A stretch of DNA of 64,000 nt, taken from contig NZ_GL877881.1 in assembly GCF_000194155.1 (NCBI RefSeq), positions 355,846 through 419,845 of the forward strand, given 5' to 3'. Below are positions 5,958-24,761 of the stretch, piece after piece; the first letter of the stretch is position 1, and every line of letters begins with the position of its first letter. The translations under genes were made by a program, and so were the position numbers. A model generated the notes under the pieces. That model was given only the letters and a program-made list of their open reading frames with translations, made no database searches and had not been told where the DNA came from. This DNA is from Saccharopolyspora spinosa NRRL 18395. GTDB taxonomy: Bacteria > Actinomycetota > Actinomycetes > Mycobacteriales > Pseudonocardiaceae.

Positions 5958-6047
5958 CAAGTCAGGAGCGTCGTCCCACCAGGTACCCCGGCAAGGCGGT
6001 CACAAGTCAGGAGCGTCGTGCCACCAGGTACCCCGGCAAGGCGGTCA
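5958..6047. repeat. 45-bp tandem duplication at the end of the biotin carboxylase gene
   Basis: Two 45-base units (5958-6002 and 6003-6047), each starting CAAGTCAGGAGCGTCGT and ending GGCAAGGCGGTCA, differ at one base. The second unit ends in the stop codon of the carboxylase gene (6045-6047), so the duplication is of the DNA just after that gene. No function is visible; replication slippage is likely. Confidence 0.85.
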
Positions 6048-7394
6048 GTCGTCGGCGAGAACCTTCTCCAGCCACATGGTGTGGACCGGGCCGTCGGCGA
6101 GTTCCGCGTTGCTGGTCAGCCGGCGGTGCAGTGCCACCGTGCTCGCGACACCTTCGACGTGGAACTCGGCGAGCGCCTGCCGCGCCCTGGCGTAGGCCTG
6201 TTGGCGGTCCGTTCCCCAGCAGATGAGCTTCGCGATGAGTGAATCGTAGAACGGGCTGATCCGGTCCCCTTGCGAAATACCCGTGTCCACCCGCACACCC
6301 GGGCCGCCGGGCAGGTGCAGTGCGGTTACATCGCCAGGAGTTGGGGTGAAGGCGCGCGCCGGGTCTTCGGCGTTGATGCGCAGCTCGATGGCGACACCCC
6401 GGCACTCGATCGAGTCCTGATCCAGCGCGAGCGGCGCGCCACCGGCGATACGCAGCTGCTCCGCGACGACGTCCACGCCGGTGATCGCCTCGGTGATCGG
6501 GTGCTCGACCTGGACGCGCGCGTTCATCTCGATGAAGTAGAAGTTCTCATCGCTGTCGACCAGGAACTCCACGGTGCCGGCGTTCCGGTAACCGACGTGC
6601 TCGGCCAGTCGCACCGCCGCCGAGGTGATGGTTTGCCGGGTCGTCTCGCGCAGGGCCGGCGCGGGCGCCTCCTCGAGGAGTTTCTGCCGGCGCCGCTGCA
6701 CCGAGCAGTCCCTTTCGAAGAGGTGCACCACTTTCCCCAGCTCGTCGGCGAGCAACTGCACCTCTACGTGCCGCGCGTTGGGAACCGCGCGCTCGAGATA
6801 GATCGTCGCGTCCCGGAACGCCGAACGCGCCTCTGCCTGGGCACCGGGCAGCACGTCCAGCAGTTCTTCGACATCGCGGACCGTCCGGATCCCCCGGCCT
6901 CCCCCACCCGCGGCTGCTTTGAGCAGCAGCGGGAATCCGAGCTCCAGAGCCGCCCGCGGCGCGTCCGCCGGATCGGTGATCGGGCCGCTGCCAGGCACCA
7001 CCGGGACGCCAGCGGCCTCAGCCGCGCGGCGCGCGGCGGCCTTGTCGCCCATCTGCTCAAGGACCGCCGGGGGCGGCCCGATAAACACCAGGTCGGCCTC
7101 ATCGATCGCCCGGGCGAAAGCGGCGTTCTCCGACAGGAATCCGTAGCCCGGGTGCACCGCGTCCACGTCGGTGGACCGCGCCGCCTTGAGCAGCGCATCC
7201 GGGTCCAAGTAGGACTTCTGCGCAGCAGACCGGCCGATGTGCACCGCATCGTCGGCCATCTGCACCCACTGCGCGTGTTCGTCGGCATCGGAGTAGACCG
7301 CCACCGCTTCGATGTCCGCCGCGTGGCACGCGCGGATGATCCGAACGGCGATCTCGCCGCGGTTGGCCACCAGCACTCGCCGCAGTCCGGTCAT
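6045..7394 (-). CDS. accC: Biotin carboxylase subunit, AccC-type (449 aa)
   Basis: This is a full-length ATP-grasp biotin carboxylase that carboxylates biotin on the carrier protein using ATP and bicarbonate. Visible signatures are the N-terminal LVANRGEIAVRIIRA, KAAAGGGGRGIR (ATP-binding loop), FIEMNARVQVEHPITE (catalytic segment) and EDPARAFTPTPG. The length of 449 matches the family. Its ATG overlaps the stop of the biotin carrier gene by 4 nt. It follows PxpB/PxpC-like genes, so it probably works with them as a split urea-carboxylase-like enzyme rather than in fatty-acid synthesis; that is inference from context. Confidence 0.9.
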   Translation of the reverse strand: MTGLRRVLVANRGEIAVRIIRACHAADIEAVAVYSDADEHAQWVQMADDAVHIGRSAAQKSYLDPDALLKAARSTDVDAVHPGYGFLSENAAFARAIDEADLVFIGPPPAVLEQMGDKAAARRAAEAAGVPVVPGSGPITDPADAPRAALELGFPLLLKAAAGGGGRGIRTVRDVEELLDVLPGAQAEARSAFRDATIYLERAVPNARHVEVQLLADELGKVVHLFERDCSVQRRRQKLLEEAPAPALRETTRQTITSAAVRLAEHVGYRNAGTVEFLVDSDENFYFIEMNARVQVEHPITEAITGVDVVAEQLRIAGGAPLALDQDSIECRGVAIELRINAEDPARAFTPTPGDVTALHLPGGPGVRVDTGISQGDRISPFYDSLIAKLICWGTDRQQAYARARQALAEFHVEGVASTVALHRRLTSNAELADGPVHTMWLEKVLADD

Positions 7395-7630
7395 GGCTCA
7401 TCGACCTCGAACATCGTCTGGCCCACGTCCACCTCGTCGCCGTCGTCGAGCAGGACCTTGCTGACGCGGCAGGCCCGGTCCGCCTTGATCTCGTTGAAGG
7501 TCTTCATCACCTCGATGATCCCCAGCGTCTGGCCCGGCCGGACAACGCTGCCGGGTTCGATGAACGGGTCCGCGTCGGGTGACGGTCGCCGGTAGAAGAC
7601 CCCCGGCAGTTGAGCATCCACTGTAGACAT
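7391..7630 (-). CDS. accB: Biotin carboxyl carrier protein (79 aa)
   Basis: A short biotinyl domain carries the biotinylation motif as EVMKT with Lys43, the usual AMKM being a variant VMKT common in AccB proteins. It begins at ATG 7630 behind AAGGGGGAG. At 79 residues it is a minimal carrier without the long Ala/Pro linker of E. coli AccB. It overlaps accC by 4 nt and follows the PxpC-like gene by 20 nt, so all are co-transcribed. Carboxybiotin would be handed to the neighbouring AHS2/PxpC-type domain, by analogy with urea carboxylase. Confidence 0.9.
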   Translation of the reverse strand: MSTVDAQLPGVFYRRPSPDADPFIEPGSVVRPGQTLGIIEVMKTFNEIKADRACRVSKVLLDDGDEVDVGQTMFEVDEP

Positions 7631-7650
7631 CGACTCCCCCTTGAACGGCG

Positions 7651-8631
7651 CTAAGCGGGTGCGACCGCCGCCCGCGCCTTCTCCAGACGTGCACGCCGCT
7701 CCTGTCGGGCGGCCATCGCCGCCTCGACGTCCACCGGCACGAAATGCACCCGACCCCCGGTCCTGGTCTGCGCCATGCGGTCCCGGTCCGCCGAGATCAC
7801 CGTGCCGATGGTCGCGTACCCACCGCCGGTGACCGCGTCGTTGAGCAGGACGATCGGCTCGTCGCCGCCGGGAACCTGCACCGAGCCGATCGGGTAGCCG
7901 AGGTCGACGACGTTGGCCTGGTCGCTGCCCGCACCGAACGGCTGCTCCCGTTCGATGAACTCCAGCGATCCGCCGCGCAGCCGGTACCCGACCCGGTCGG
8001 CGTCCTTGGTGACCTTCCACTCCGTGCTGAGGAACGACTCCAGCGCGCGCCCGGTCAACCGGTAGGCGCACAGCCCGACGACGAACCGGAGTTCGGTCGC
8101 CGCCGGGAAATCCGGGCGCAGCTCCTCGGGCACCTCGGTGCCGGCCGGCGGGGCCGGTCCGGGCTCACCGAGCGGCAGCTGGTCGCCGCTGATCAGCGCC
8201 CGCCCCTGGAAACCCCCGATACCGGTGAGCATGTAGGTCGAGCGCGAGCCCAGGTAGGGAGGCACGTCGATACCACCGCCCACTGCGATGTACGGACGGG
8301 CACCGGCGCGGACCTGTTGGACCGCCAGCACGTCACCTGCCGATACCCGCAGCGCCTGCCACGCCGGGGCGGGTTCCCCGTTGATCGTGACGCCGCCGTC
8401 CGCGCCGGTCACCGCGACGGTGCGCGAGTCGGTGAATTCCAGTTCGGGTCCGAGGTACGTCGCTTCCAGGGCAGCAGCCCCGTCCGGGTTGCCGACGAGC
8501 ACGTTGGCCACCGCGAAGGAGTACTGGTCCACCGCCCCCGACGGCGGCATTCCGATGGCGTACCGCCCGTCTCGACCATTGTCCTGGACGGTCGTGGACA
8601 AGCCGCCCGAGCGCACGATCAGGAAGCTCAC
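7651..8631 (-). CDS. pxpC: Biotin-dependent carboxyltransferase-family protein, PxpC/KipA-like (326 aa)
   Basis: The protein matches the AHS2/KipA family: N-terminal GLSTTVQDNGRDGRYAIGMP, then PPSGAVDQYSFAVANVLVGN, VDLGYPIGSVQVPGGDEPIV and a terminal RVHFVPVDVEAA. In PxpABC this subunit, with PxpB, forms the ATP-dependent 5-oxoprolinase; in urea carboxylase the same fold is part of the carboxyltransferase. I start at GTG 8631, which overlaps the PxpB stop (GTGA). A biotin carrier and biotin carboxylase follow directly, so the biotin-using role is at least as likely as simple 5-oxoprolinase. Confidence 0.85.
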   Translation of the reverse strand: MSFLIVRSGGLSTTVQDNGRDGRYAIGMPPSGAVDQYSFAVANVLVGNPDGAAALEATYLGPELEFTDSRTVAVTGADGGVTINGEPAPAWQALRVSAGDVLAVQQVRAGARPYIAVGGGIDVPPYLGSRSTYMLTGIGGFQGRALISGDQLPLGEPGPAPPAGTEVPEELRPDFPAATELRFVVGLCAYRLTGRALESFLSTEWKVTKDADRVGYRLRGGSLEFIEREQPFGAGSDQANVVDLGYPIGSVQVPGGDEPIVLLNDAVTGGGYATIGTVISADRDRMAQTRTGGRVHFVPVDVEAAMAARQERRARLEKARAAVAPA

Positions 8632-9530
8632 CGGTACAGCACCTCCAAGAGCCGGCCGTTCACCGCGTCCGGGTCGGCGAGCAGTTCCGCCGGAACCAGC
8701 TCCACGTCGCGGATCCGGTAGCGGAAGTGCCCGACCTCCACCTCCGAACGGGTGCGGTCGTATTCGTCGCGATCGATCGCCCGGTACCGCAGGACGTCGC
8801 TGGGCCGCGGGAACGCGATGTCGTCGGCGAAGTCCGGCAACCGCTGCGCGAGGTCGAACACCGGAGCGGGAGCTATCCCGAAGAGCTGGTACCCGCCGGC
8901 CCCGCGCACCGGGTAGACCACGGCGAAAGCCCCGCCGTAGCCGAATGCCCGTTCCGGCGTGTCGGTCCGCGGACGCACGTACTTCGGCACCTGGATCTGC
9001 CGGTCGCGCGGCACCATCTGGTAGCAGAACGGCAGTCCCGGGACGAAACCAAGCATGGTGACCAGGAATGGTGCGGCGGTGATCGCCTCGACCAAGGCCC
9101 GGACATCGGTGAAACCGTTGATGCGGGCGGCGAATTCGAGGTCCGTGGCGTCCGGATCCTGGTGCCGGTCGCGGAACTTCAGCAGGGTTTCGCGGGTCCA
9201 CGGATCGTCGAAGAGCACCGGCACGTCGACGATGCGGGTGCGCACCGCGTGGTCGTCCGGGAGCTCCCCGGCCGTGTGCTCCAATCTGCGCAGTTCTTCG
9301 ACCAGTTCGGCCGGGTGCAGGCGATCGGGGTTCAACCGCACCAGATACGAGGCGTTGGACGGGCAGATGTCGATGACTCCGTCGATGTTCTCGCGGCGCA
9401 GCGCACCGGTGATCGCCATCGCCTTGAGGTTGGCTTTTAGGCTCATCTCCCGGTCGAGTTCGACGAAGACGAATTCGTCGCCACCGAACTCGTAGCGCGC
9501 CGGCGGCAGCTGAACCTCCATCGCGGTCAC
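8628..9530 (-). CDS. pxpB: 5-oxoprolinase subunit B / KipI-like allophanate hydrolase domain protein (300 aa)
   Basis: This AHS1/KipI-family protein has PAPFLVTMLGFVPGLPFCYQ-like residues (FVPGLPFCYQMVP), FGYGGAFAVVYPVRGAGGYQ and a C-terminal FRYRIRDVELVP. The family partners PxpC in ATP-dependent ring opening of 5-oxoproline, or resembles the carboxyltransferase half of urea carboxylase. GTG 9530 has GAGGGGGG at suitable spacing; ATG 9521 is the alternative. At 300 aa it is longer than typical KipI (about 230-240) and than the paralogue at 21067-21777 (236). It leads the operon running down to accC. Confidence 0.85.
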   Translation of the reverse strand: MTAMEVQLPPARYEFGGDEFVFVELDREMSLKANLKAMAITGALRRENIDGVIDICPSNASYLVRLNPDRLHPAELVEELRRLEHTAGELPDDHAVRTRIVDVPVLFDDPWTRETLLKFRDRHQDPDATDLEFAARINGFTDVRALVEAITAAPFLVTMLGFVPGLPFCYQMVPRDRQIQVPKYVRPRTDTPERAFGYGGAFAVVYPVRGAGGYQLFGIAPAPVFDLAQRLPDFADDIAFPRPSDVLRYRAIDRDEYDRTRSEVEVGHFRYRIRDVELVPAELLADPDAVNGRLLEVLYR

Positions 9531-9696
9531 GGCCCACCCCCCTCGCCAACGAATGCGAATTGAGAATGCGCCGCAGGAACGTTCCGCGCAGCTTGGTCGT
9601 GCGTGGGTGAGGCACCTTCGGGTGAGCCGCTTTGTGACCGCTCTGCGTGCGGCGGTCCCGGCACCTACCATCAGCGGCCGACCTGGAGGTGACCAG

Positions 9697-10467
9697 TTGC
9701 GCACTCTCGTCGATCTCAACGCTGACGCCGGGGAGAGCCTCGGACGGTGGCGGCTCGGTGATGACGCCCGCCTCATCCCGCTCGTGACATCCGTCAACAT
9801 CGCGTGCGGTTGGCACGCCGGGGATCCGGCGACGATGAGCCGCTCCGTCGAGCTGGCGCGTGACGGCCGGACATCGATCGGCGCGCACCCGGGTTTCCCC
9901 GACCTCATCGGCTTCGGCAGGCGAGCTCTGTCGATGAGCCCGGGGGAAGCCGCGCGGGCCTGCCTCTACCAGTTCGGTGCCCTGCAGGCCATCGCCGCAC
10001 ACCACGGCGCCGCGATCTCCCACGTCAAGCCGCACGGTGCGCTCTACGGCCTGGCGGTCAAGGACGACGCCGTCGCCGAAGCCGTGGTGGAGGCCTTCGC
10101 CGCTGCGGCCCCCGGCGTGCGGGTCGTGCTCCTGGCCGGGCCGGTCGCCGAACGTCTCGCCGAGCGGGGGTTCCCGGTGGTGCGGGAGGCGTTCGCCGAC
10201 CTGGACTACGACGAATCCGGACACATCATCATCGAGCCGGATCCCCGGGCCAAGTCCCCGCAGCGCTGCGCGGACCAGGCGGTGGCGGTGCTCCGCGGCG
10301 AAGTTACCTCCGTCGCGGGCACGCCCATCGCGGTCGACGCCGACACGATCTGCCTGCACGGCGACCGACCGAATGCGGTGGAGATCGCGGAGGCGATCCG
10401 CGACCGGTTCGCCTCCGAAGGGGTGCGCCTGGCTTCGATGGCCGAGGTCGCGGACGCGCGGTCCTGA
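9697..10467 (+). CDS. pxpA: 5-oxoprolinase subunit A, LamB/YcsF family (256 aa)
   Basis: YcsF-family hallmarks are DLNADAGES at the N-terminus, SVNIACGWHAGDP, IGAHPGFPDLIGFGRR and SHVKPHGALYGLAV. PxpA is thought to phosphorylate or cleave 5-oxoproline with PxpBC to yield glutamate using ATP. The TTG start at 9697 follows GGAGG at 9685-9689 with 7 nt spacing. It is transcribed divergently from pxpB, leaving about 165 nt for a shared promoter region, and ends 1 nt from the convergent amidohydrolase gene. Confidence 0.9.
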   Translation: MRTLVDLNADAGESLGRWRLGDDARLIPLVTSVNIACGWHAGDPATMSRSVELARDGRTSIGAHPGFPDLIGFGRRALSMSPGEAARACLYQFGALQAIAAHHGAAISHVKPHGALYGLAVKDDAVAEAVVEAFAAAAPGVRVVLLAGPVAERLAERGFPVVREAFADLDYDESGHIIIEPDPRAKSPQRCADQAVAVLRGEVTSVAGTPIAVDADTICLHGDRPNAVEIAEAIRDRFASEGVRLASMAEVADARS

Positions 10468-10468
10468 G

Positions 10469-11401
10469 TCAACCCGCCGGCAGCAGGTGGTCGGAGGACT
10501 CGATGCGCGAATCGCCCAGGTGGTCCCCTTCCGGGCTGAACGGCGGCACGGTACACGGCACGCAGTCGGCCACCAGCAACGAGTCCACCGCTCGCTCCTC
10601 GGGGCCGGCGCACACCACCGCGGTACCGTTCGGCGCCCAGATGCCGGAATTGCCCCGGTACTCCCACTGCCCGCGTTCCGACACCTCCCAGCCGCGCCGA
10701 TTGGCGTAGGCGACGAACACCCGCCACACGGCCGCCATCGCGGGAATGATGTGCTCGGTGGCATCGGGATAGGGAACCAGCGTCGGAGTCCCGTCCTGGA
10801 GCGTGAAGTGCCGGTCGGCAGCCGTGGGACCGACGATCAACCGCGCACCGCGCCGGACCAGACTCTGGTAGAGCGGCGGGAACTCGCACTCGTAGCAGTT
10901 GAGCAAGCCGATCGGGAATCCGTTCAGCTCGACCACCGGCGGAATCTCTTCACCAGCGGTGAAGTTCGCGCGTTCGGCGGCGCCGTACAGGTGCGTCTTA
11001 CGGTAGTTGGCGATGAGCTCGCCGTCGGCGGCAATGGCCACCGAATCGTGCAAGGCACCGCTTTCCGCCCGTTCCACGTAGGGCAGGACGACTGCGACTT
11101 CGTGCAGTTTGGAGAGCTTCCGGGCGAGTTTGACGGACTGGCCGTCGTACGGCTCCGCCAGCAGTTCGCACTGCTCACGCCCGAGCGCGTAGCCGGTGTT
11201 GAAGCACTCGGGGAACGCGCAGAGCTGGCTCTCGTAGTCGGCCGCCAGGGCCAGAACTTCCTCCATCCTGGCGAGGTTCTCCGCCTTCGCGGTCGGTGAA
11301 CCCGCCGGGTTCTCGCCTTGGAAGAGCGAAACCCGGATTCCGGTACCGGGCCGTGGGGGTTCGCGGTCGACCAACCTGCTGATGATTCTGACGGGACGCA
11401 T
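10469..11401 (-). CDS. Carbon-nitrogen hydrolase (nitrilase superfamily) (310 aa)
   Basis: The nitrilase-fold triad is visible: Glu65 in FPECFNTGY, Lys135 in YRKTHLYG and Cys169 in LLNCYECEFP. Substrates of this superfamily are amides, nitriles or carbamoyl compounds; which one applies here cannot be read from sequence. The ATG at 11401 follows a GGAGAGGAGAG stretch and lies 15 nt after the decarboxylase stop, so the two genes form an operon. The neighbourhood suggests hydrolysis of an amide into an amino or carboxylic acid entering glutamate/GABA metabolism. Confidence 0.8.
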   Translation of the reverse strand: MRPVRIISRLVDREPPRPGTGIRVSLFQGENPAGSPTAKAENLARMEEVLALAADYESQLCAFPECFNTGYALGREQCELLAEPYDGQSVKLARKLSKLHEVAVVLPYVERAESGALHDSVAIAADGELIANYRKTHLYGAAERANFTAGEEIPPVVELNGFPIGLLNCYECEFPPLYQSLVRRGARLIVGPTAADRHFTLQDGTPTLVPYPDATEHIIPAMAAVWRVFVAYANRRGWEVSERGQWEYRGNSGIWAPNGTAVVCAGPEERAVDSLLVADCVPCTVPPFSPEGDHLGDSRIESSDHLLPAG

Positions 11402-11416: not shown

Positions 11417-12700
11417 TCAATTCACAGTGGAGACGAACTCTTCAACAGCGGCTATGAAATCCTCGACCGCCTCTAGCGTGAAATCGCTGCGGACGACGAC
11501 GCGCATCGCTTCGACGTTGCCCAGTTCCGGCGGAAGCGTGTAGACCGGCACCGCCCAGCCGCGGTCGGCCAGGTGCATCGCCAACCGCCGCAACTTGATC
11601 GGCAGCTCGGCGGTCAGCACGACCACCGGCAGCTCGCTGCCGTCACCAAGCAGCCGGAACCGCCCGGTGTCGTGCAGGCGGGCGGCCAACTGCCGCGCCA
11701 GCAACCTCGAACGCGCGTGCACGGCGTGGAAACCGGCGAACCCGAAGCGAACGAAGTTGTAGTACTGAAGGACCACGGGCGCTGCCGACCTGGAGAAGCT
11801 CAGCTCGTAGTGGGTGTCGTCGCCGCCGAGGTAGTTGATCCGAATCCCCAGTTCGGGGCTGCGCCGGCCCCCGTCGCGCCACAGCAGCCAACCCAAGCCC
11901 GGTAGGACCATGCCCGACTTGTGGCCGGAGGCGTTGATCGAAACCACCCGCGGGATGCGGAAGTCCCAGCAGAGCTCGGTGTCCAGGAACGGTGCGATGA
12001 ACCCGCCGGATGCGGCGTCGACGTGCATGGGCACGTCGATCCCGCGTTGTTGGTCGAGCCTGTCCAGCTCGGCCGCGATCTCGGCGATCGGCTCGTAACG
12101 ACCATCCAAAGTGGATCCGAGGATGCCGATCACGCCGATGGTGCCTTCGTCGCACAGGTCTGCGGCCGCAGTGCCGTCGAGGGCCAGCCGGCCGGCCCTG
12201 GCCGGGGCGATGCGGGCCTCGACTCCCCAATGGCGGCAGAACTTCTTCCAGCAGGCGTGCGCGCCGGCACCCATGACGAGGTTCGGGCGGGACAGCTCGT
12301 CCCTGGTGCGTTCCTGCCAGCTCCGCAGCAAGGAGACCCCGGCCAGCAGGGCGGACTCACTGGACCCCGTGGTGGCGCTGCCAACCACTGCTCGCGAATC
12401 CCCGTGCCACAGCACGCCGATGATCCGCACGCATTCGCGCAGCAATTCGTCCATCGCCGGGTACTGCTCGCGGTCGACCAGGTTGTAGTTCAGGTAGGCG
12501 CGGTAGAGCCGCTGCGCCTCCGGTTCGATCGATGTGGTGAGGAAGGTCGCGAGGTTCCGTTCCGGACTGCAGCCGCCGCGCAACCTGCCCGCCACGGCAT
12601 TCAGCGCTGCATCCGCGTCCATTCCGAAATCCGGGATCCCGCGCCGAAGTTGCGTCGAGGAACATAACGGTTCCTCGGCCGCGTTCGCCAGAGCAGACAT
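11417..12700 (-). CDS. gadB: PLP-dependent glutamate decarboxylase-like enzyme (427 aa)
   Basis: This group II decarboxylase has a PLP Lys261 (SINASGHKSGMV) and the conserved Asp228 of HVDAASGGF. GSATTGSSESALLAG near residue 110 also fits GadB-type enzymes, which turn glutamate into GABA and CO2. It is about 30-40 residues shorter than E. coli GadB, mostly at the ends. ATG 12700 follows AGGAG. Its place beside a 5-oxoprolinase locus fits a route 5-oxoproline to glutamate to GABA, but substrate identity is inference. Confidence 0.8.
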   Translation of the reverse strand: MSALANAAEEPLCSSTQLRRGIPDFGMDADAALNAVAGRLRGGCSPERNLATFLTTSIEPEAQRLYRAYLNYNLVDREQYPAMDELLRECVRIIGVLWHGDSRAVVGSATTGSSESALLAGVSLLRSWQERTRDELSRPNLVMGAGAHACWKKFCRHWGVEARIAPARAGRLALDGTAAADLCDEGTIGVIGILGSTLDGRYEPIAEIAAELDRLDQQRGIDVPMHVDAASGGFIAPFLDTELCWDFRIPRVVSINASGHKSGMVLPGLGWLLWRDGGRRSPELGIRINYLGGDDTHYELSFSRSAAPVVLQYYNFVRFGFAGFHAVHARSRLLARQLAARLHDTGRFRLLGDGSELPVVVLTAELPIKLRRLAMHLADRGWAVPVYTLPPELGNVEAMRVVVRSDFTLEAVEDFIAAVEEFVSTVN

Positions 12701-12772
12701 GGTTGAACACTCCTGTTGCTGGTGGTGTGCGACAACATCGGCCAGGCTACGAGCGATCAGGAGCAATGCGCC

Positions 12773-13351
12773 ATGAACAATTCGGCCCAGCGCTTTCGTA
12801 CTAGTGCAGGACCCACCAACCGTGCTGGGCCGTCCGGGGTATCTCCTGCGGCATTCGAGCGATTTGATCGCTGTTTCAGTTATCTCCGCTGGTCGCGTGG
12901 CGAAATAGGAAGTGCTGATCGACGAACCGGGTACCGGGCGACCCCGGCCGAACCGCCCGAGTGGAGGCGTTTGATGGCCCGTTCCCACGACCGGGCGCTA
13001 GACCGGGCGATAACCGCTCTGCTGCACGAGGCCGTTGAGCATTCACGCGCGATGCGCCAGGTCCTGCACCAGGTCGGTCAGCTTGCTGCGCTCCGGATCG
13101 AGCTGACCCGACCAGACGAGAACGATGGTTTTCCCAAAGTCGCTGCGAACGGCCACGTGCTGTCCCCGCTGACCAAGCGGGAACGGGAGGTGCTCGACCA
13201 GCTCGTTCGCGGCCGCTCCAACAGAGAGATCGCCCGATCGCTGGGCATATCGGAGCGCACGGTCAAGAACCATCTCCGCAACATCTTCACCAAGCTGGGC
13301 GTGGGCGATCGAACTTCAGCGGTCGTGAAAGCCCTGGGGGGCAACAGGTAG
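12773..13351 (+). CDS. LuxR-type HTH regulator (192 aa)
   Basis: The C-terminal 65 residues form a LuxR/GerE DNA-binding domain (SPLTKREREVLDQLVRGRSN, then REIARSLGISERTVKNHLRN and IFTKLGV). The N-terminal half shows no receiver or other known domain. ATG 12773 follows AGGAG; 72 nt separate it from the divergent decarboxylase gene, so it is the likely local regulator of the decarboxylase-amidohydrolase operon. Confidence 0.8.
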   Translation: MNNSAQRFRTSAGPTNRAGPSGVSPAAFERFDRCFSYLRWSRGEIGSADRRTGYRATPAEPPEWRRLMARSHDRALDRAITALLHEAVEHSRAMRQVLHQVGQLAALRIELTRPDENDGFPKVAANGHVLSPLTKREREVLDQLVRGRSNREIARSLGISERTVKNHLRNIFTKLGVGDRTSAVVKALGGNR

Positions 13352-17314: not shown

Positions 17315-17548
17315 CATCCCCCCAGTCAAGAACCAATTGCGCAGTCGGGATACCCGCACGTGCGGCAGCGAAAACCTCGGTCAATCAACGGATCTCCGGC
17401 CGGTGGTCAGATGGCCGCAGCATCACCAGAGGTATCCAGCCTCCAGCGATTCTCGGAAGCCCTTTCCCAGTTCACCGCACAGGGGACCCGTTGATCGATG
17501 CCGACGACAGCGTCACCGACCCGTTCAACCCAAGACTGTGACAGGCGG

Positions 17549-17716
17549 GTCTCCTGCGGCCAGGAGGTCGCGGCGAGCGACCTTATCGCGGTGCCGGAAG
17601 CGATGAAGATGGAGAAGGCGGGCACGGCCCACAAGGCGGGCACGGTCACGGGCCTGTCGGCCCAGCCGGGCGACCCGGTCTCGCAGGGCACCACCCTCTG
17701 CAAGCTGAAGGACTGA
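17549..17716 (+). pseudogene. C-terminal biotinyl-domain fragment of an acyl-CoA carboxylase alpha subunit
   Basis: Roughly 55 codons read a biotin attachment domain (SCGQEVAASDLIAVPEAMKM, then AHKAGTVTGLSAQPGD and SQGTTLCKLKD, stop). Lys of AMKM is preserved, but there is no carboxylase part and no credible start; the family protein is about 600 residues. It is a stranded 3' end, comparable to the aceE-like fragment at 4205, and like it lies close to copies of the palindromic repeat. Confidence 0.75.
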
Positions 17717-18262: not shown

Positions 18263-18889
18263 TCAGGCGCCGTTGGCGTTGGCCCATCCCACAAGCGCCT
18301 GGAAGTATGCGTGTTCGAGGTGCAGGAGGGCCTCGTCACGGGTGAGGCCGGTGTCGACCAGGTCCAGGATCTCGCGCGGGTCGAACATGATGTTGCACAG
18401 GAACAAGGCGTGTTCGAAGTGCTCGTCCGGGATCTCCAGGTGCCGCATCACGCTGCGAACCGGTCGTTCCCACGCCTCTCGCACGGTGGAGATGACCGGG
18501 TCGTTGCCACGCAGCCTCGCCAGGAAGCCGCCGCGGGAACGCAGCTGCACCATCGCGGCCCCGTAGCTCTCCAGCAACCGGGCCCATTCGCCTGCGACTT
18601 CCTCGAACAGCGCCGGACCGGTTTTCGGGCAGTCGTGGCTGTAGTCGCGCAGCTCGACGATCACTCGGTGCAGGTAGGCGTTGAGCAGGTCGTCCAGCGC
18701 CGAGAAGTACCGGTAGGCGGTGGGCACCGACAGGCCAGCTCTGTCCGCGATCGCGGGCATGGAGACACCGCCGGGGTCGGTGCGCAACAGCTCCCCCGCA
18801 GCTTCGAGCAGCCGCTCTCGGTTGCGGACCGCGTCCCGGCGTGGCCGGCTGCGGGCCGGCGCGCGGCGCCCCGGTGTGGTGGTCAGCAA
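18263..18889 (-). CDS. TetR-family regulator (208 aa)
   Basis: The N-terminal HTH reads RNRERLLEAAGELLRTDPGG, then MPAIADRAGLSVPTAYRYF, typical of TetR repressors; the C-terminal ligand domain is unassigned. The frame opens at TTG 18889, and GGAGG overlaps the stop of the upstream aminotransferase gene, so the start may be this TTG or CTG 18886. It is co-transcribed with the aminotransferase and probably controls that gene and the divergent pxpABC operon, for which a palindrome lies at 20246-20259. Confidence 0.85.
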   Translation of the reverse strand: MLTTTPGRRAPARSRPRRDAVRNRERLLEAAGELLRTDPGGVSMPAIADRAGLSVPTAYRYFSALDDLLNAYLHRVIVELRDYSHDCPKTGPALFEEVAGEWARLLESYGAAMVQLRSRGGFLARLRGNDPVISTVREAWERPVRSVMRHLEIPDEHFEHALFLCNIMFDPREILDLVDTGLTRDEALLHLEHAYFQALVGWANANGA

Positions 18890-18895
18890 TGCCTC

Positions 18896-20038
18896 CTACA
18901 GTCGCGCGAGGGTCTTCTGCATGCGGTTCAGTCCTTCGTCGAGCGTATCGAAGTCGGCGGCGAAGGAGAGCCGGACGTGGCCTTCCCCCGAGGGGCCGTA
19001 TTCGCTGCCAGCGCGCACCGCGACACCACCAGCCAGCAGGCGCTGCACGACGTCCTCGGACCGCAGCGCACAGCGGTACCTGGCGAAGGCGTAGAACGCG
19101 CCTTCGGGCTTGATCGCCTCGACCTCGTCCATCTCGGCGAGACGCTTGGCCACCAGGTCGCGGCGCTCCTGGTAGGCGCGCAGCATCGGCGCCGCCAGTT
19201 CTGGGCCGAGTCGCAATGCGGTGATGGCCGCCCGCTGGGCAGCGGCGTTCAGAGCGCTGTTGAAGGTGCGGTGCACATGACGGATGGGCGCCGTCATCTC
19301 GACCGGCGCGACGACGTACCCGACTCTCCAGCCGGTCATGGCGTAGGTCTTCGACAGCGTCTGGCAGTAGATGAGGCGCTCGCGCAGGGATTCGACGGCG
19401 AGCGCGGAGGTGAACGGCACCCCGTCGTAGACGATCTCGGCGTACGCCTCGTCGGCCAGCACCAGGACATCGGTTCCGTCCAGCAACGCACCCAGGGCGC
19501 CCAACTCATCGCCGTTGAACACGGTTCCGGTCGGGTTGACGGGGTTGCACAGCACGATCATCCGCGCGCCTCGGAGGGCGTCGGCGAGCGCGTCCAGATC
19601 GAGTCGGTGATCTGATGTCGTCGGGACGAGCACCGGTTCGCCACCGGCCAACCGCACCGCGTCCGGGTAGAGGGAGTAGGTGGGTTCGGGGATCACCACT
19701 CGATCTCCCGGGTTCACGGCGGCGAGGACAGCGGCATTGATCGCGGCTGCGCCGCCGTGGGTCACCGCGACGTTGCCTTCCGAGTACGCCTGGCCGGACC
19801 GCCCGGACGCAGCCGCGGCAATCACCTCGCGGAGTTCGGGGTCGCCGTTGAGATCTCCGTAGTGGGTGTAGCCGTCGGCGAGCGCGCGACGACAGGCTTC
19901 CACGATCGGCTCCGGGGTCGGGAAATCGGGTTCGCCCGTGGCCAGCGACACCGTCCCGGCCGGCGGGACCGCGCCGGCCGGCCGAAGCGACGAACGTTTA
20001 ACACGGGTGATGGCGAGCGACGGCTGGAACCGGACCAC
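18896..20038 (-). CDS. Class I/II PLP-dependent aminotransferase (380 aa)
   Basis: Fold-type I aminotransferase signatures are PNPxNPTG (CNPVNPTG at 164-171), Asp196 in VLADEAYAE and the PLP-binding Lys230 in TLSKTYAMTGWRVGY. Substrates of this subgroup include aspartate, aromatic amino acids and other 2-oxo acids. GTG 20038 follows GAGGAG. Being divergent from pxpABC-rraA and sharing a regulator, it may remove the amino group of the glutamate-like product of the PxpABC enzyme. The exact substrate is not readable. Confidence 0.85.
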   Translation of the reverse strand: MVRFQPSLAITRVKRSSLRPAGAVPPAGTVSLATGEPDFPTPEPIVEACRRALADGYTHYGDLNGDPELREVIAAAASGRSGQAYSEGNVAVTHGGAAAINAAVLAAVNPGDRVVIPEPTYSLYPDAVRLAGGEPVLVPTTSDHRLDLDALADALRGARMIVLCNPVNPTGTVFNGDELGALGALLDGTDVLVLADEAYAEIVYDGVPFTSALAVESLRERLIYCQTLSKTYAMTGWRVGYVVAPVEMTAPIRHVHRTFNSALNAAAQRAAITALRLGPELAAPMLRAYQERRDLVAKRLAEMDEVEAIKPEGAFYAFARYRCALRSEDVVQRLLAGGVAVRAGSEYGPSGEGHVRLSFAADFDTLDEGLNRMQKTLARL

Positions 20039-20245
20039 AGCTTCTCCTCAGGACGAGCGACTCGGCGAGCTCGGCACGAAACCGATAGTAGAGTCTCAGT
20101 TTTGATGCAGTATAGGAGAGGGTGGAGCTCCACGGTCAAGCCTCATCCTTCGGCAACGACGGCCGTTTCAGGTGCTTAAACCGCCTGGATTTCCAGGGGC
20201 AACCTATTGACAACACGGAACCCGCTCGCCACGCTGTCCTGAACT

Positions 20246-20259
20246 GAGATACCTATCTC
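20246..20259. promoter_or_regulatory. Candidate TetR operator upstream of the second pxpA
   Basis: GAGATA-CC-TATCTC is a perfect 14-bp palindrome ending 10 nt before the pxpA ribosome-binding site and within the divergent aminotransferase-pxp intergenic region. Its size and place suit a TetR dimer site. Confidence 0.5.
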
Positions 20260-20278
20260 GAATCGAGTGGGAGGTTGC

Positions 20279-21070
20279 ATGGGTGCGGTAGTCGATCTCG
20301 TCGCGGATCTCGGGGAGAGCTTCGGCGCCTACCGGATGGGTGATGACGAAGCGCTCCTCGACGTCGTCAGCTCGGCCAACGTCGCGTGCGGCTTCCACGC
20401 CGGCGACCCGCGGGTGATGGATTCCACCGTGCGCGCCTGCGTTCGCCGCGGGGTCGGGGTCGGGGCGCACCCCGGGATCCCCGACCTGGTGGGGTTCGGC
20501 CGGCGGGCACTGGAGATGACTCCGAACGAGGTGCGCACCGACGTGCTGTACCAGATCGGCGCGTTGTCCGCGTTCGCCGCCGCGCACGGCACCCGGCTGC
20601 GCCACGTCACCCCGCACGGCAGGCTCGGCAACCTGGTGGTGACCGACGACGAGTACGCCGAGGCCGTCGCGGATGCCGTGCAGTCCTACGACCCGTTGTT
20701 GATCATCGTGGCGCAGGAAGGCCGGCTCGCCGTGCACGCACGCTCGCGCGGGCTCCCGGTCGCGGTCCTGGGCCTGGCCGATCGCGCCTATCAGGACGAC
20801 GGAACACTCGTGCGCCGTTCCGAGCCCGGTGCGGTGATCCACGATTCTCGCGAGGTCGCCGAACGAGTCGTGCGGATGGTCACCGAAGGCGTGATCCGAT
20901 CGATCAACGGTCACGACATCCCGGTGCGGTGCGACTCGGTGCTGCTGCACGGCGACACCCCTGGTGCGGTCGAGTTGGCCCGCACCGTCCGTCGTGAACT
21001 CGTGGCCGCGGCGGTGCGCATCCGACCGCTGACCGAGATCCTGGCCACCAAGAACGGAAACACCCGGTGA
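20279..21070 (+). CDS. pxpA: 5-oxoprolinase subunit A paralogue, LamB/YcsF family (263 aa)
   Basis: It has DLVADLGESFG, SANVACGFHAGDP, VGAHPGIPDLVGFGRR and HVTPHGRLGNL. Compared with the first locus, family KPHGALY is changed to TPHGRLG, so a conserved Lys and Ala near the substrate are replaced, which may mean a different lactam or related ring. ATG 20279 follows GGGAGG closely; an in-frame GTG at 20267 would include the ribosome-binding site and is less likely. The next gene overlaps by 4 nt. Confidence 0.85.
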   Translation: MGAVVDLVADLGESFGAYRMGDDEALLDVVSSANVACGFHAGDPRVMDSTVRACVRRGVGVGAHPGIPDLVGFGRRALEMTPNEVRTDVLYQIGALSAFAAAHGTRLRHVTPHGRLGNLVVTDDEYAEAVADAVQSYDPLLIIVAQEGRLAVHARSRGLPVAVLGLADRAYQDDGTLVRRSEPGAVIHDSREVAERVVRMVTEGVIRSINGHDIPVRCDSVLLHGDTPGAVELARTVRRELVAAAVRIRPLTEILATKNGNTR

Positions 21071-21777
21071 TGGCCCCGCCAACGTGGCAGATCACCGACT
21101 TCGGCGACTCAGCGTTACTCGCCAAAGCGGTGGGCTCGGGCCCCGAGCACTGCTGGCAGGCCGTGCAGCGCTTGGCCGACGCCCTCGAACCCGATGATCG
21201 GGTCATCGACCTGGTTGCCACCTACGACAGCCTGCTCGTCGAGTTCGACTGCGACGAGGTCACGCACACCGAGCTGACGGAAGCGGTGCACCGAACCATC
21301 GCAGCCCAGCCCACCACGCCAGCACCGCTGCGCAGCCGCGCCTTCCGCATCCCGGTTGTCTTCGGCGGCTCCTGCGGACCGGATCTTCCTGCCGTGGCGG
21401 AAGAACTGGGCATCACCGAACAAGATGTGGTGGACGCGCTGTGCAGCCGCGAGTTCCCAGTCCGCTTCCTCGGCGCACCCGCCGGAGCCCCCATGCTGGA
21501 CGGCACGCCGTTCGCCCAGCCGATCGGCCGATGCGCGCAACCCCGCGTCGCCGTCGAGCCGGGTTCCGTCGCGCTGTCCGGCCACCAAGCAGTCATCTAC
21601 CCGGTGCGTTCCCCCGGCGGCTGGCGGCTGATCGGGCGAACCCCGCTGAAGCTGGTCGACATCGCCGACGAGCCGTACGTGCCGTACCAACCGGGAGACC
21701 GGTTCCGGTTCGTCCCCATCGACGCCGATCACTGGAGCGACTGCGCCGCCCAGATCGTGGAGGTCGTGGATGCCTGA
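21067..21777 (+). CDS. pxpB: 5-oxoprolinase subunit B paralogue, KipI-like (236 aa)
   Basis: AHS1/KipI-type sequence: FGDSALLAKAV at the N-terminus, IPVVFGGSCGPDLPAVAEEL in the middle, and GHQAVIYPVRSPGGWRLIGR near the end, with FRFVPID last. Normal length for KipI/PxpB. In the usual GFxPGFxYL region it reads FPVRFLGAPAGAPMLDG, noticeably different from the first-locus copy. GTG 21067 overlaps the pxpA stop; ATG 21070 is equally possible. It overlaps pxpC by 8 nt. Confidence 0.85.
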   Translation: MMAPPTWQITDFGDSALLAKAVGSGPEHCWQAVQRLADALEPDDRVIDLVATYDSLLVEFDCDEVTHTELTEAVHRTIAAQPTTPAPLRSRAFRIPVVFGGSCGPDLPAVAEELGITEQDVVDALCSREFPVRFLGAPAGAPMLDGTPFAQPIGRCAQPRVAVEPGSVALSGHQAVIYPVRSPGGWRLIGRTPLKLVDIADEPYVPYQPGDRFRFVPIDADHWSDCAAQIVEVVDA

Positions 21778-22753
21778 AGAACTCCAAGTGCGCCAGGCCG
21801 GTATCGCTGCCATCACCGACCTCGGACGCCGCGGGCTCGCCCGGCGGGGCGTGCCCGTCAACGGTGCCGCCGACCAGTACTCGGCGGCCGTGGCCAACAT
21901 CCTGGTCGGCAATCCGCGCAGCGCCCCGCTGATCGAGATCACCGCGACCGGCTTCGCGCTAAGCACCACTCGTCCCGTACTGGTCTCCGTCACCGGAGCA
22001 CCGGCCGAAGTGACCATCAACGACCGCCTCGGCCGGATGTGGGAACCGCTGTGCCTGGAACCCGGCACGACCATCCGGGTCGCAGCGCCGACGGGCGGGC
22101 TCCGCTGCTACCTCGCGGTGCACGGAACCATCGACGCACCAACGGTTTCCGGCAGCTGCGCGCCGGACTCCCTGCTGGGTGTCGGTACCCAGCTGGCGAC
22201 CGGGGCGACGGTCGGCCTGCGCAGCGACTACCGACCGGTCGACCACCCGGTCTTCCGCCATCCGCTGTTCTGCCTGGGAGCCGCGCCGCCGCGATTCCCG
22301 GATCCCTGCACGATCGACGTCACCGACGGCCCGGACATCGCCGAATTCCCCACCGGCCGCGAACTCCTCGCATCTGCGACCTACGCGGTCACCCCGCGCA
22401 GCAACCACATCGGACTGCGCTTGGCCGGCCCCATGCCACCGCGCTTGAGCTCAGCGGAGGTGCTCTCGCGCGGCATCCCCGTCGGCGCCGTCGAAGTCCC
22501 GCCCTCCGAAGAGTTGCTCGTGCTGCAACGAGGCCGGCCAGTCACCGCCGGATACCCCGTGATCGCAGTCGCCACCAAGATCGCCCAAGACGCGCTGGGA
22601 CAACTCCGCCCCGGCCAGCACCTCCGCTTCCGGTACCGAACCGTCGCCGACGCCGTCGCGATGCACAGGGCCCGCCAGCACCGGCTGCGAACTCTGGCGA
22701 ACCGGGTCTGCACGGTCTTCGCCGCACTCGGCATCTCCTGCCGCACCGCCTGA
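21770..22753 (+). CDS. pxpC: 5-oxoprolinase subunit C paralogue, KipA-like (327 aa)
   Basis: AHS2/KipA family: ITDLGRRGLARRGVPVNGAA, DQYSAAVANILVGN, SRGIPVGAVEVPPSEELLVL and a C-terminal LRFRYRTVADA. Together with PxpB it should form the ATP-driven ring-opening or carboxyltransferase-like half of the enzyme. No biotin carboxylase or carrier gene is near this copy, unlike the first locus, which argues for the non-biotin 5-oxoprolinase mode. It is 12 nt from the aldolase gene. Confidence 0.85.
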   Translation: MPEELQVRQAGIAAITDLGRRGLARRGVPVNGAADQYSAAVANILVGNPRSAPLIEITATGFALSTTRPVLVSVTGAPAEVTINDRLGRMWEPLCLEPGTTIRVAAPTGGLRCYLAVHGTIDAPTVSGSCAPDSLLGVGTQLATGATVGLRSDYRPVDHPVFRHPLFCLGAAPPRFPDPCTIDVTDGPDIAEFPTGRELLASATYAVTPRSNHIGLRLAGPMPPRLSSAEVLSRGIPVGAVEVPPSEELLVLQRGRPVTAGYPVIAVATKIAQDALGQLRPGQHLRFRYRTVADAVAMHRARQHRLRTLANRVCTVFAALGISCRTA

Positions 22754-22765
22754 AAGAGGACTCCC

Positions 22766-23413
22766 ATGACCGCAAGTTCCACCGCCGATCAATTGGCCAG
22801 GCTCAAGGAACTCGGGGCCGCCACCGTGCACGAAGCACAGGGCGGCACCGGCGCCCTCGACAGCGCCGTCAAGCCCCTGCACCCCGCGATGGCCGTCGCC
22901 GGTCCGGCACTGACCGTGGACTGCAAACCCGCCGACAACCTCGCCATCCAACACGCCGTCACCCTCGCCCGCCCCGGCGACGTCCTGGTCGTCGACGCCA
23001 AGGCATTCCTGGAAGCCGGCCCGTGGGGCGACATCCTCACCCTCTACGCCCAGCAGGTCGGCATCACCGGACTGGTCATCGACGGCTCAGTGCGCGACAG
23101 CCAAGCCATCGTCGACATGGGATTCCCGGTGTTCTGCCGCGGCATCTGCATCAAGGGAACCGGGAAGAACCAACCCGGCAAGGTCAACGAGACGATCATC
23201 TGCGGCGGCGTCACGATCAACCCGGGCGATGTCGTGGTCGGCGACGCCGACGGCGTCGTGGTGGTCCCCGCCGGCGACGTCGAATGGGTCATCGAGCTAT
23301 CCGAAGCCCGCGAGCAGAAGGAAGCCCGCTTCCGAACCGCTTTGCGGGACGGGCAAAGCCTGGTCGAGCTCATGAGCCTCGGTCCCAAACTCACCGAACA
23401 CGGCTACCGCTGA
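22766..23413 (+). CDS. RraA-family aldolase (HMG/CHA aldolase-like) (215 aa)
   Basis: RraA-fold class II pyruvate aldolases of this kind cleave 4-hydroxy-4-methyl- or 4-carboxy-4-hydroxy-2-oxo dicarboxylates, releasing pyruvate. The active-site pattern is visible: GPWGD at 86-89 and, about 21 residues on, DGSVRD with Arg110-Asp111, then GFPVFCRGICIKGTGK. The presence of the G...R-D pattern favours a catalytic aldolase over the RNase E inhibitor RraA. It lies between pxpC and a transporter in one operon, with AAGAGG before ATG 22766. Confidence 0.8.
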   Translation: MTASSTADQLARLKELGAATVHEAQGGTGALDSAVKPLHPAMAVAGPALTVDCKPADNLAIQHAVTLARPGDVLVVDAKAFLEAGPWGDILTLYAQQVGITGLVIDGSVRDSQAIVDMGFPVFCRGICIKGTGKNQPGKVNETIICGGVTINPGDVVVGDADGVVVVPAGDVEWVIELSEAREQKEARFRTALRDGQSLVELMSLGPKLTEHGYR

Positions 23414-23441
23414 CCTGAACCACTCGCCCCTGGAGTCGAGC

Positions 23442-24761
23442 ATGCCCCACACCCCGACGACCGAGCCCACCGACCAGCAGGCATCACCCGCCCAACTGCG
23501 ACGCGTCACCCTGGCCGGCAGCCTCGGTGTCTTCGTCGAGTTCTTCGACTACGGCATCTACGGCTTCCTCGCCCCGATCATCGCCACGGTCTTCTTCGCC
23601 GGACAAGGCAGCACCGCCGCGCTCCTGATGACCTACGGTGTATTCGCCCTCACCTTCTTCTTCCGTCCACTGGGCGGTTTCGTCCTCGGCTACCTAGCTG
23701 ACCGGATCGGCCGACGCGCCGTGCTGGTCTTCGCTCTCACGCTGATGACCGGCGCCACCACAGCCATCGGCCTGCTCCCCGGTTACAACACCATCGGCAT
23801 CGCCGCACCGATCCTGCTGCTGTGCATGCGCATCGCCCAGGGCTTCTCCGCAGGCGGCGAAGTCGCCAGCGCCATGTCCTTCGTGGGCGAACACTCCCCC
23901 GCCCACCGGCGCGGATTCCTGATGTCCTGGACCCAGGTCGGCTCGTTCACCGCCCTGCTCACCGGCACCCTGCTCGCCATGTGCCTCAACTCCGCCCTCA
24001 GCGAGCAGGCGATGCAAGCCTGGGGCTGGAGGGTGCCGTTCCTGCTCGCCGCACCGCTGGGCATCGTCGGCTACTACATCCGAGCCCGGCTGCACGACAC
24101 GCCGAACTTCACCAAGCTCCAAGAATCCGACACCGTGGCGGCCAACCCGATCCGGGAGACGTTCGCCGAGAAGGGGAACCTGCGCAACCTGGCGCTGGCC
24201 ATCGGGATCCCGGTGCTCAACAGCTCCGGTTACTACGTGCTGTTCACCTACATGCCCACGTACCTGTCGAAAGAGCTGAAGTTCAACCAGGTCCAGGGCC
24301 TCACCGTTACCGCGGTGTCCCTGGTCGTGATCGCGGTTTCCATCCCGCTCGCCGCCAAGCTGTCGGACCGCATCGGCCGCCGCCCGGTCCTCATGACCTC
24401 GGCGATCGGCCTCGTGATCCTCGCCTACCCCTGCTTCTGGCTGATGACGCAGGGCAGCGTCATCGCCTCGGTCCTCGGAGCTGTCGTCATGGCCCTGTTC
24501 TACTCCGGGCATGCCGGGATCATCCACGCGGTCCTCGTCGAGATGTTCCCCACCCGGGTCCGCAACACCGCCTACTCCATCGGCTACAACATCTCAACCG
24601 CAGTGTTCGGCGGCGCGGCCCCACTGGTCCTCACGGCATTGATCTCCGCGACCGGCGATCCCGCCATCCCCGCCTACTACGTCATCCTCACAGCTCTGGG
24701 AACCGGCGTCTCCGTCCTGCTGGCGAGGGAGACCGCTCGCTCCTCGCTCACCGACAAATAG
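23442..24761 (+). CDS. MHS-family MFS transporter (metabolite:H+ symporter) (439 aa)
   Basis: Twelve membrane segments are predicted, with MHS signatures: VEFFDYGIYGFLAPIIATVF near the N-terminus, GYLADRIGRRAVL between helices 2 and 3, and AAKLSDRIGRRPVLM in the second half. MHS members (KgtP, ShiA, ProP, dicarboxylate and aromatic acid carriers) import organic acids with protons. As the last gene of the pxp-aldolase operon it probably imports the substrate. It starts at ATG 23442, 28 nt after the aldolase stop. Confidence 0.85.
   Translation: MPHTPTTEPTDQQASPAQLRRVTLAGSLGVFVEFFDYGIYGFLAPIIATVFFAGQGSTAALLMTYGVFALTFFFRPLGGFVLGYLADRIGRRAVLVFALTLMTGATTAIGLLPGYNTIGIAAPILLLCMRIAQGFSAGGEVASAMSFVGEHSPAHRRGFLMSWTQVGSFTALLTGTLLAMCLNSALSEQAMQAWGWRVPFLLAAPLGIVGYYIRARLHDTPNFTKLQESDTVAANPIRETFAEKGNLRNLALAIGIPVLNSSGYYVLFTYMPTYLSKELKFNQVQGLTVTAVSLVVIAVSIPLAAKLSDRIGRRPVLMTSAIGLVILAYPCFWLMTQGSVIASVLGAVVMALFYSGHAGIIHAVLVEMFPTRVRNTAYSIGYNISTAVFGGAAPLVLTALISATGDPAIPAYYVILTALGTGVSVLLARETARSSLTDK

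Follow-up and report, generated by a model that had tools for sequence, protein, structure and literature searches.

The operon considered here lies in a 64,000-nucleotide stretch of the Saccharopolyspora spinosa NRRL 18395 genome (contig NZ_GL877881.1, positions 355,846 to 419,845 of the forward strand; hereafter the window, to which positions refer unless a locus is named). It joins genes for the three subunit families of the 5-oxoprolinase PxpABC to genes for an RraA-family, aldolase-like protein and an MHS-type transporter, and is divergent from genes for an aminotransferase and a TetR-family regulator. At roughly even odds (probability about 0.5), this operon enables the cell to take up and degrade a hydroxylated lactam of the pyroglutamate type. 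The reading draws on an altered motif in PxpA, on aldolase residues kept by the RraA-family protein and on a survey of 93 PxpA sequences, in which an RraA gene was found near 30 of 54 proteins without the tyrosine of that motif and near none of the 39 with it.

Organization of the operon

The features of the locus are listed below.

18263–18889, − strand: TetR-family regulator, 208 aa (Pfam TetR_N)
18896–20038, − strand: class I/II aminotransferase, 380 aa (Pfam Aminotran_1_2, 215 bits)
20039–20278, no strand: divergent intergenic region with a palindrome (20122–20133) and an inverted repeat (20246–20259), candidate operators, statistically weak
20279–21070, + strand: PxpA-like LamB/YcsF protein with variant motif (Pfam LamB_YcsF, 311.5 bits; NCBIfam NF003814, 343.5 bits, cut-off 226)
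20603–20632, + strand: codons of HVTPHGRLGN, PxpA residues 109–118 (HVKPHGALYN or similar in canonical PxpAs)
21070–21777, + strand: PxpB-like protein (Pfam CT_C_D; NCBIfam TIGR00370, 119.2 bits, below the cut-off of 145.55)
21770–22753, + strand: PxpC-like protein (Pfam CT_A_B; NCBIfam NF045499, 130.2 bits, below the cut-off of 500)
22766–23413, + strand: RraA-family protein resembling 4-hydroxy-4-methyl-2-oxoglutarate/4-carboxy-4-hydroxy-2-oxoadipate (HMG/CHA) aldolase, with D-X20-R-D (Pfam RraA-like, 153 bits; NCBIfam NF006731, 194.7 bits, cut-off 179)
23442–24761, + strand: MHS-type MFS transporter, likely an importer (Pfam Sugar_tr/MFS_1; TIGR00883, 378.9 bits, below the cut-off of 443.45)

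The gene set, positions and divergent layout given by a first-pass annotation of the DNA agreed with the coordinates and Pfam matches, all seven proteins of 18263–24761 exceeding the Pfam gathering score. The genes for PxpA, PxpB, PxpC, the RraA-family protein and the MHS transporter form a single compact operon on the + strand, with the aminotransferase and TetR genes divergent on the − strand. The PxpA and PxpB genes overlap by 1 bp (ATG starts) and those of PxpB and PxpC by 8 bp, while gaps of 12 and 28 bp separate PxpC from RraA and RraA from MHS. The best start for PxpA is the ATG at 20279, with GGGAGG 5′ of it; other options are 20267 for the LamB_YcsF gene and 21067, instead of 21070, for the CT_C_D gene. 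The host genome has five RraA-like genes in 8.58 Mb, so that for any one gene the chance of an RraA-like gene lying within 9 kb is about 1 %, and the placement of RraA in the pxp operon is more than chance.

For the transporter, the top NCBIfam model was TIGR00883 (metabolite/H+ symporter), with a score under its cut-off, and the protein is 51–57 % identical to MHS proteins of loci L050, L064 and L011. The aminotransferase is 50 % identical to that of L009 in the same genome and 48 % identical to that of L064 (Microbacterium); TLSK near residues 227–230 presumably contains the pyridoxal phosphate (PLP) lysine.

Variant motif of PxpA and residues of the RraA-family protein

Residues 111–117 of the window PxpA read TPHGRLG in place of KPHGALY, as had been pointed out from the sequence earlier. 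All four solved PxpAs compared have the tyrosine (PH0986 and PA4511, KPHGALYN; TTHB195, KPHGALYL; Escherichia coli YbgL, KPHGMLYN), and the window protein thus departs from KPHG(A/M)LY, although it retains CGFHAGDP, the GAH segment, DRAY and HGD. PxpA, PxpB and PxpC families are encoded together, with no equivalog-level NCBIfam match for PxpB or PxpC (TIGR00370, NF045499). Because of the TPHGRLG motif and the scores of PxpB and PxpC under the equivalog cut-offs, the window PxpABC was not filed as a 5-oxoprolinase, although it most likely works like one.

The active pattern of the RraA-family protein, first described as G...R-D, proved to be a full D-X20-R-D within an RraA-like domain, with the catalytic arginine and the metal ligands. 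Residues were mapped by a gap-free phmmer alignment (offset 13) to the HMG/CHA aldolase structure 3NOJ, and eight of ten were identical: Gly101, Asp102, Arg123, Asp124, Gly144, Lys147, Arg195 and Glu199, corresponding to G88, D89, R110, D111, G131, K134, R182 and E186 of the window protein. Asn71 of 3NOJ aligns with N58. Within the portion of the aldolase study drawn on here, substitutions of Asn71 and Lys147 cost more than 1000-fold and Arg123 was essential (PMC5065237). The LigK/PcmE equivalog model TIGR02798 scored 172 bits against a cut-off of 304.5 bits.

Association of the variant motif with RraA genes

Contigs were scanned with the window PxpA and the best 80 of 567 confirmed loci were taken. 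The alignment of 93 PxpAs scoring above 120 bits comprised these scan loci and longer loci from the host genome and its family; L001–L007 (duplicates of own-genome places) and L013–L042 (flanks of about 1.5 kb) were excluded from the counts. RraA was sought within 9 kb and aminotransferases were counted above 100 bits. By residue at the motif position, RraA was near 0/39 tyrosine, 21/43 glycine and 9/11 serine types. With full-flank loci only, the proportions were 0/28 tyrosine-bearing versus 27/45 tyrosine-less (Fisher P=3e-8, ignoring descent). An aminotransferase was near 30/43 glycine-type, 0/11 serine-type and 3/39 tyrosine-type PxpAs, the last three being L009, L010 and L011. The altered PxpA motif marks the RraA-linked PxpAs.

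Several observations support a functional link beyond descent. The RraA partners belong to different subfamilies (one representative each: NF006731 in the window, PRK06201 in L076 of Propionivibrio, group B, and PRK08245 in L079 of Bradyrhizobium, group C), and Microbacterium L064 has all seven gene families of the window in a changed order. The aminotransferase has been exchanged, since the window's shows 33–35 % identity to the aminotransferases of groups A, B and D, against 51–57 % among the latter. In L060 (PxpA TPHGRLGN), an HpcH/HpaI-type lyase is found instead of RraA, together with a thiamine diphosphate (TPP) enzyme and a CoA-transferase. As a check, the first-pass annotation had proposed looking for conservation elsewhere of pxpABC together with genes for an RraA aldolase and an aminotransferase, and the set does recur in actinobacteria and proteobacteria. 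Within the family of the host, PxpAs at least 65 % identical to that of the window were found in 4 of 150 genomes, host included; of the three relatives, RraA is present at L043 and L044 and was not found at L045.

A number of results weigh against the proposed function. Serine-type PxpAs (group C) have RraA in 9/11 cases but an aminotransferase in none, a result that counts against an aminotransferase step in every such pathway. RraA was not detected in the neighbourhood of 24 of the 54 tyrosine-less PxpAs (18 of 45 with full flanks); it occurs in 6/15 group-B and 0/4 group-D loci, and in L046 and L047 a variant motif (TPHGSLG) coexists with the NRAMP and D-glutamate cyclase genes of a canonical context. 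A tree reconstructed by a quick method with the motif columns removed showed two changes of motif state and six of RraA, and the independent-pairs test, with a single supported pair, had a median P of 1 and no power. With so few motif changes and one supported independent pair, the count could largely be explained by descent, and statistical independence of tyrosine loss and RraA was rejected as a claim. In the window RraA, His75 and Arg40 of the reference are replaced by Gln (Q62) and Gly (G27), and D-X20-R-D is absent from the six group-B RraAs and from that of L141; the RraA-family member FlDet is described in part of its report as a dehydratase/decarboxylase (PMC8563752). The genes of the window cluster do not include the short-chain dehydrogenase/reductase (SDR) of most sister operons, a comparison confined to the cluster.

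Related operons in actinobacteria and proteobacteria

Group A (20 mostly actinobacterial loci, window included) contains PxpB in 20, PxpC in 19, an aminotransferase and LysR in 16 each, RraA and MHS in 15 each and an SDR in 14 loci; in L050 (Nonomuraea) the SDR sits between the MHS and aminotransferase genes. Overall, an SDR (>200 bits) was near 29/54 tyrosine-less PxpAs versus 0/39 others. The L050 SDR shares 61–65 % identity with its counterparts at three group-B loci.

Among 72,556 plasmid records, 180 (125 from Rhizobium) had a match to the group-B-type SDR of L141 at E≤1e-50. Eleven of the 180 regions, picked for diversity (L141 and L155 being near-identical), were examined. PxpA and an aminotransferase were annotated in 11/11, and RraA or 'CHA aldolase' in 9/11 (the exceptions being Rahnella and Neorhizobium). 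The RraAs of Rhizobium etli, R. johnstonii, Agrobacterium larrymoorei, A. vitis and Paracoccus are 68–72 % identical to that of L050 and 42–47 % identical to that of the window. The operon is carried by R. johnstonii 3841 (pRL10) and R. etli CFN 42 (p42c), and by plasmids of peanut-associated Bradyrhizobium (seven records matched, two examined). The window operon likewise combines a tyrosine-less PxpA, RraA and an aminotransferase in one cluster, with an aminotransferase not orthologous to that of the sister module (33–35 % identity versus 47–72 % among the module members compared).

Two tyrosine-bearing plasmid PxpAs were examined and no RraA was annotated near either. That of the Eleftheria plasmid lies beside DUF969, DUF979, biotin carboxylase and pyroglutamyl peptidase genes, so that biotin carboxylase accompanies both PxpA types. 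On plasmid pRM41A of Sinorhizobium meliloti Rm41 (L149, 23247–27329), a tyrosine-bearing PxpA occurs with a fused PxpBC-type gene and a biotin carboxylase, surrounded by sugar ABC transporter, Gfo/Idh, glycolate oxidase and beta-hydroxyaspartate genes. On a Pseudonocardia plasmid (L142), a PxpA match (HLSPHGRLGN) stands alone, with no partner genes, and 12 pattern matches in viral contigs yielded no relative. Peanut makes 4-methyleneglutamine and an HMG aldolase; a peanut-specific link was rejected, since the SDR marker is also in records from bean, pea and clover hosts and the operon is in R. etli CFN 42 and R. johnstonii 3841.

Proposed pathway and alternative explanations

In the proposed pathway, the MHS protein would import the lactam (the direction of transport being presumed) and PxpABC, which is related to 5-oxoprolinase and has the altered motif, would open the ring using ATP to give an alpha-amino dicarboxylic acid. 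The aminotransferase would convert this to a 4-hydroxy-2-oxo acid, which the RraA-family enzyme would split into pyruvate and a second oxo acid or aldehyde. TetR may regulate the divergent gene pair. Genomic context supports this chain of import, ring opening, transamination and C–C cleavage, in which each reaction is a prediction from the genes. The substrate may be 4-hydroxypyroglutamate, in which case the products would, as in the mammalian breakdown of hydroxyproline, be pyruvate and glyoxylate; it may equally be a 4-substituted pyroglutamate or a more hydroxylated lactam. Monatin lactam was also considered; monatin is unmentioned among the matches listed in the open-licence literature. 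The caprolactamase of PMC8453981 was set aside, as its authors, in the part of the paper used, call it not similar to PxpABC.

The first-pass annotation had outlined such a chain for a 4-hydroxy(-4-substituted) pyroglutamate. The conserved gene set, the essential arginine and metal ligands of RraA and the changed PxpA motif favour the outline, while the evidence does not separate the named substrate from other hydroxylated lactams, and the chain leaves the SDR and sugar-acid enzymes of the sister operons unexplained. These enzymes are a gluconate-5-dehydrogenase-like SDR (13/54 tyrosine-less PxpAs), a 2-hydroxyacid dehydrogenase (12/54) and an L-idonate-5-dehydrogenase-like protein (9/54), each near 0/39 of the others, at thresholds set by the authors and uncorrected for descent. 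Their genes lie behind LysR in actinobacteria, downstream of RraA in Agrobacterium and Sinorhizobium, near RraA in Paracoccus and in part near group-B Paraburkholderia loci. As they adjoin sister operons, a hydroxylated, perhaps polyhydroxylated, substrate is favoured. If it were 4-hydroxypyroglutamate, the 2-hydroxyacid dehydrogenase could reduce glyoxylate, with the SDR and idonate-type genes unaccounted for.

A polyhydroxylated, sugar-acid- or iminosugar-like lactam, from which RraA would receive a hydroxylated 2-oxo acid and sugar-acid dehydrogenases would do the rest, the window operon being a trimmed version, is a rather unlikely alternative. It would account for the counts above and for the recurrence of the same gene kinds, rearranged, beside RraA in A. 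larrymoorei, Sinorhizobium chiapasense and Paracoccus; the proteobacterial and actinobacterial blocks share SDRs (55 % identity) and idonate-type dehydrogenases (44 %), and in Terrarubrum the set is adjoined by kdgD and mannonate dehydratase genes. However, no sugar-acid dehydrogenase gene was seen in the window cluster, the 2-hydroxyacid dehydrogenases of the two blocks are only 35 % identical, and the block was present in only three of the 11 plasmid regions, where it may serve plant-derived idonate independently. The RraA protein might instead act on the 2-oxo acid by decarboxylation or dehydration, in the manner of class II pyruvate aldolases on oxaloacetate or of FlDet on a ketodeoxyglucarate. 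HMG/CHA aldolase is described, in the same portion of its study, as decarboxylating oxaloacetate too (PMC5065237), FlDet is a dehydratase/decarboxylase (PMC8563752) and NF006731, the model matched by the window protein, names both activities. Nevertheless, the retention of eight of ten pyruvate aldolase residues, the essential arginine included, and the identity of only 20 % between FlDet and HMG/CHA aldolase given in the FlDet excerpt (PMC8563752) make this improbable.

Still more doubtful is a plain 5-oxoproline operon, in which the motif change would be neutral and the aldolase and aminotransferase would hitchhike or handle glutamate. All three subunits do belong to PxpABC families, and the TPHGSLG motif of L046 and L047 sits with NRAMP and D-glutamate cyclase, but the tyrosine-bearing PxpAs are without RraA (0/39), and the host already holds a canonical PxpA set. 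The 5-oxoproline operon of Corynebacterium glutamicum has an NRAMP-type PxpT and a GntR-type PxpR, with neither aldolase nor aminotransferase mentioned in the main text of its report (PMC13274462), which was seen in part.

Other pxp loci of the host genome

The 8.58-Mb genome has six full PxpAs and one partial match, one of which is clearly canonical: L008 encodes a KPHGALYN PxpA with PxpB, PxpC, D-glutamate cyclase and GntR genes. L009 (2700–11291) contains PxpABC, an aminotransferase, an MHS transporter, a split TPP enzyme and an aldehyde dehydrogenase, and L010 (4737–13239) a similar set with weaker TPP-enzyme matches; both possibly direct lactam breakdown by oxidative decarboxylation in place of aldol cleavage. 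L011 (4145–12522), with PxpABC, an aminotransferase, MHS, an Asp/Glu racemase and an amidohydrolase, is by its gene content a further putative lactam module. A lactam opener, an aminotransferase and an importer thus occur together four times in the genome, window included, and three of the four sets hold a predicted enzyme that could cleave a 2-oxo acid.

A second pxp cluster (6045–11401) has genes for biotin carboxylase, PxpC, a nitrilase-family protein and a PxpB-like protein (weak, 30 bits), all on the − strand. Its PxpA (9703–10467, + strand) keeps KPHGALY, has lost the R-x-x-PGA segment and lies on a very long tree branch. The cluster is adjoined by a PLP-dependent decarboxylase gene (11417–12988; Pfam Pyridoxal_deC), whose product might have glutamate or a related compound as its substrate. 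Just outside the cluster of interest, 17528–17716 is a fragment whose translation resembles the C terminus of a biotin carboxyl carrier protein (BCCP), the remainder of the gene not being in view; we take its EAMKMEK to be the biotin carboxyl carrier motif.

Tentatively, and with the odds somewhat against it, PxpABC-family ATP-dependent lactamases may have diversified into modules for hydroxylated, plant- or soil-derived lactams in Actinomycetota and Pseudomonadota, including R. johnstonii pRL10 and the peanut-nodule bradyrhizobial plasmids; the literature searched does not link such lactams to a pathway of this kind. Such modules would combine an altered PxpA motif, an aminotransferase and an interchangeable C–C cleaving enzyme (RraA aldolase, HpcH/HpaI lyase, or TPP decarboxylase with aldehyde dehydrogenase), and the window operon would be one branch.

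Intergenic repeats and regulator

The palindrome reported between the divergent genes does exist and is perfect over 12 bp (GTGGAGCTCCAC, 20122–20133). As regulatory evidence it is weak: the GC-rich 64-kb window contains 33 perfect 12-bp palindromes, and when the 240-bp gap was shuffled 500 times by mononucleotide, 4.2 % of the shuffled sequences had one or more. At 20246–20259 there is a second inverted repeat, GAGATA-CC-TATCTC. In L064, a cluster that also has a TetR homologue (213 bits), no match to either repeat was noticed by eye in a 241-bp stretch at the corresponding gap, and palindrome-based regulation was retained as a weak possibility only.

TetR matches were found in 5 of 394 genomes of the class, host included. 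Six matches lay outside the host, and five were examined with flanks (L136–L140). Among neighbourhoods without a PxpA match, an aminotransferase is present at L137, L138 and L140 and RraA at L136 and L140; L139 has neither of these matches in its flanks.

Comparison with known systems

No description of an operon of the window type, or of the sister PxpABC–SDR–aminotransferase–RraA type, was found in the open-licence literature searched. If the proposed function is correct, some of the genes that carry the label '5-oxoprolinase subunit PxpA' encode proteins with a different substrate, a catabolic route of soil bacteria and rhizobial plasmids becomes directly testable, and loss of the KPHGALY tyrosine is a simple sequence marker for lactamases with new substrates.

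The window operon resembles pxpTABC of C. glutamicum, as far as that system is covered by the part seen (PMC13274462, where Bacillus subtilis is also cited), in having the same three subunit families in one operon with a transporter and a divergent regulator. It differs in the PxpA motif and the equivalog scores of PxpB and PxpC, in an MHS rather than an NRAMP transporter, in a TetR rather than a GntR regulator and in the added aminotransferase and RraA genes. The RraA-family protein shares its family and eight identical mapped residues with HMG/CHA aldolase (PMC5065237), whereas it lies in a lactam operon rather than an aromatic meta-cleavage operon, has the Gln and Gly replacements and scores below the LigK equivalog cut-off. 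The PxpABC–SDR–aminotransferase–RraA operons of rhizobia and actinobacteria (R. johnstonii pRL10, R. etli p42c, Streptomyces) likewise have a tyrosine-less lactam opener, an aminotransferase, RraA and an importer. They differ from the window in their orthologous SDR and their different aminotransferase, and most of the proteobacterial operons also have genes for biotin carboxylase, BCCP and ABC importers.

In the mammalian hydroxyproline route, 4-hydroxyglutamate is converted by an aminotransferase to 4-hydroxy-2-oxoglutarate (HOG), which HOG aldolase, a class I enzyme unrelated to the RraA family, splits into pyruvate and glyoxylate. The route has no lactam step; its course from an amino dicarboxylate through a 4-hydroxy-2-oxo acid to pyruvate and glyoxylate is the one that the window operon may share.

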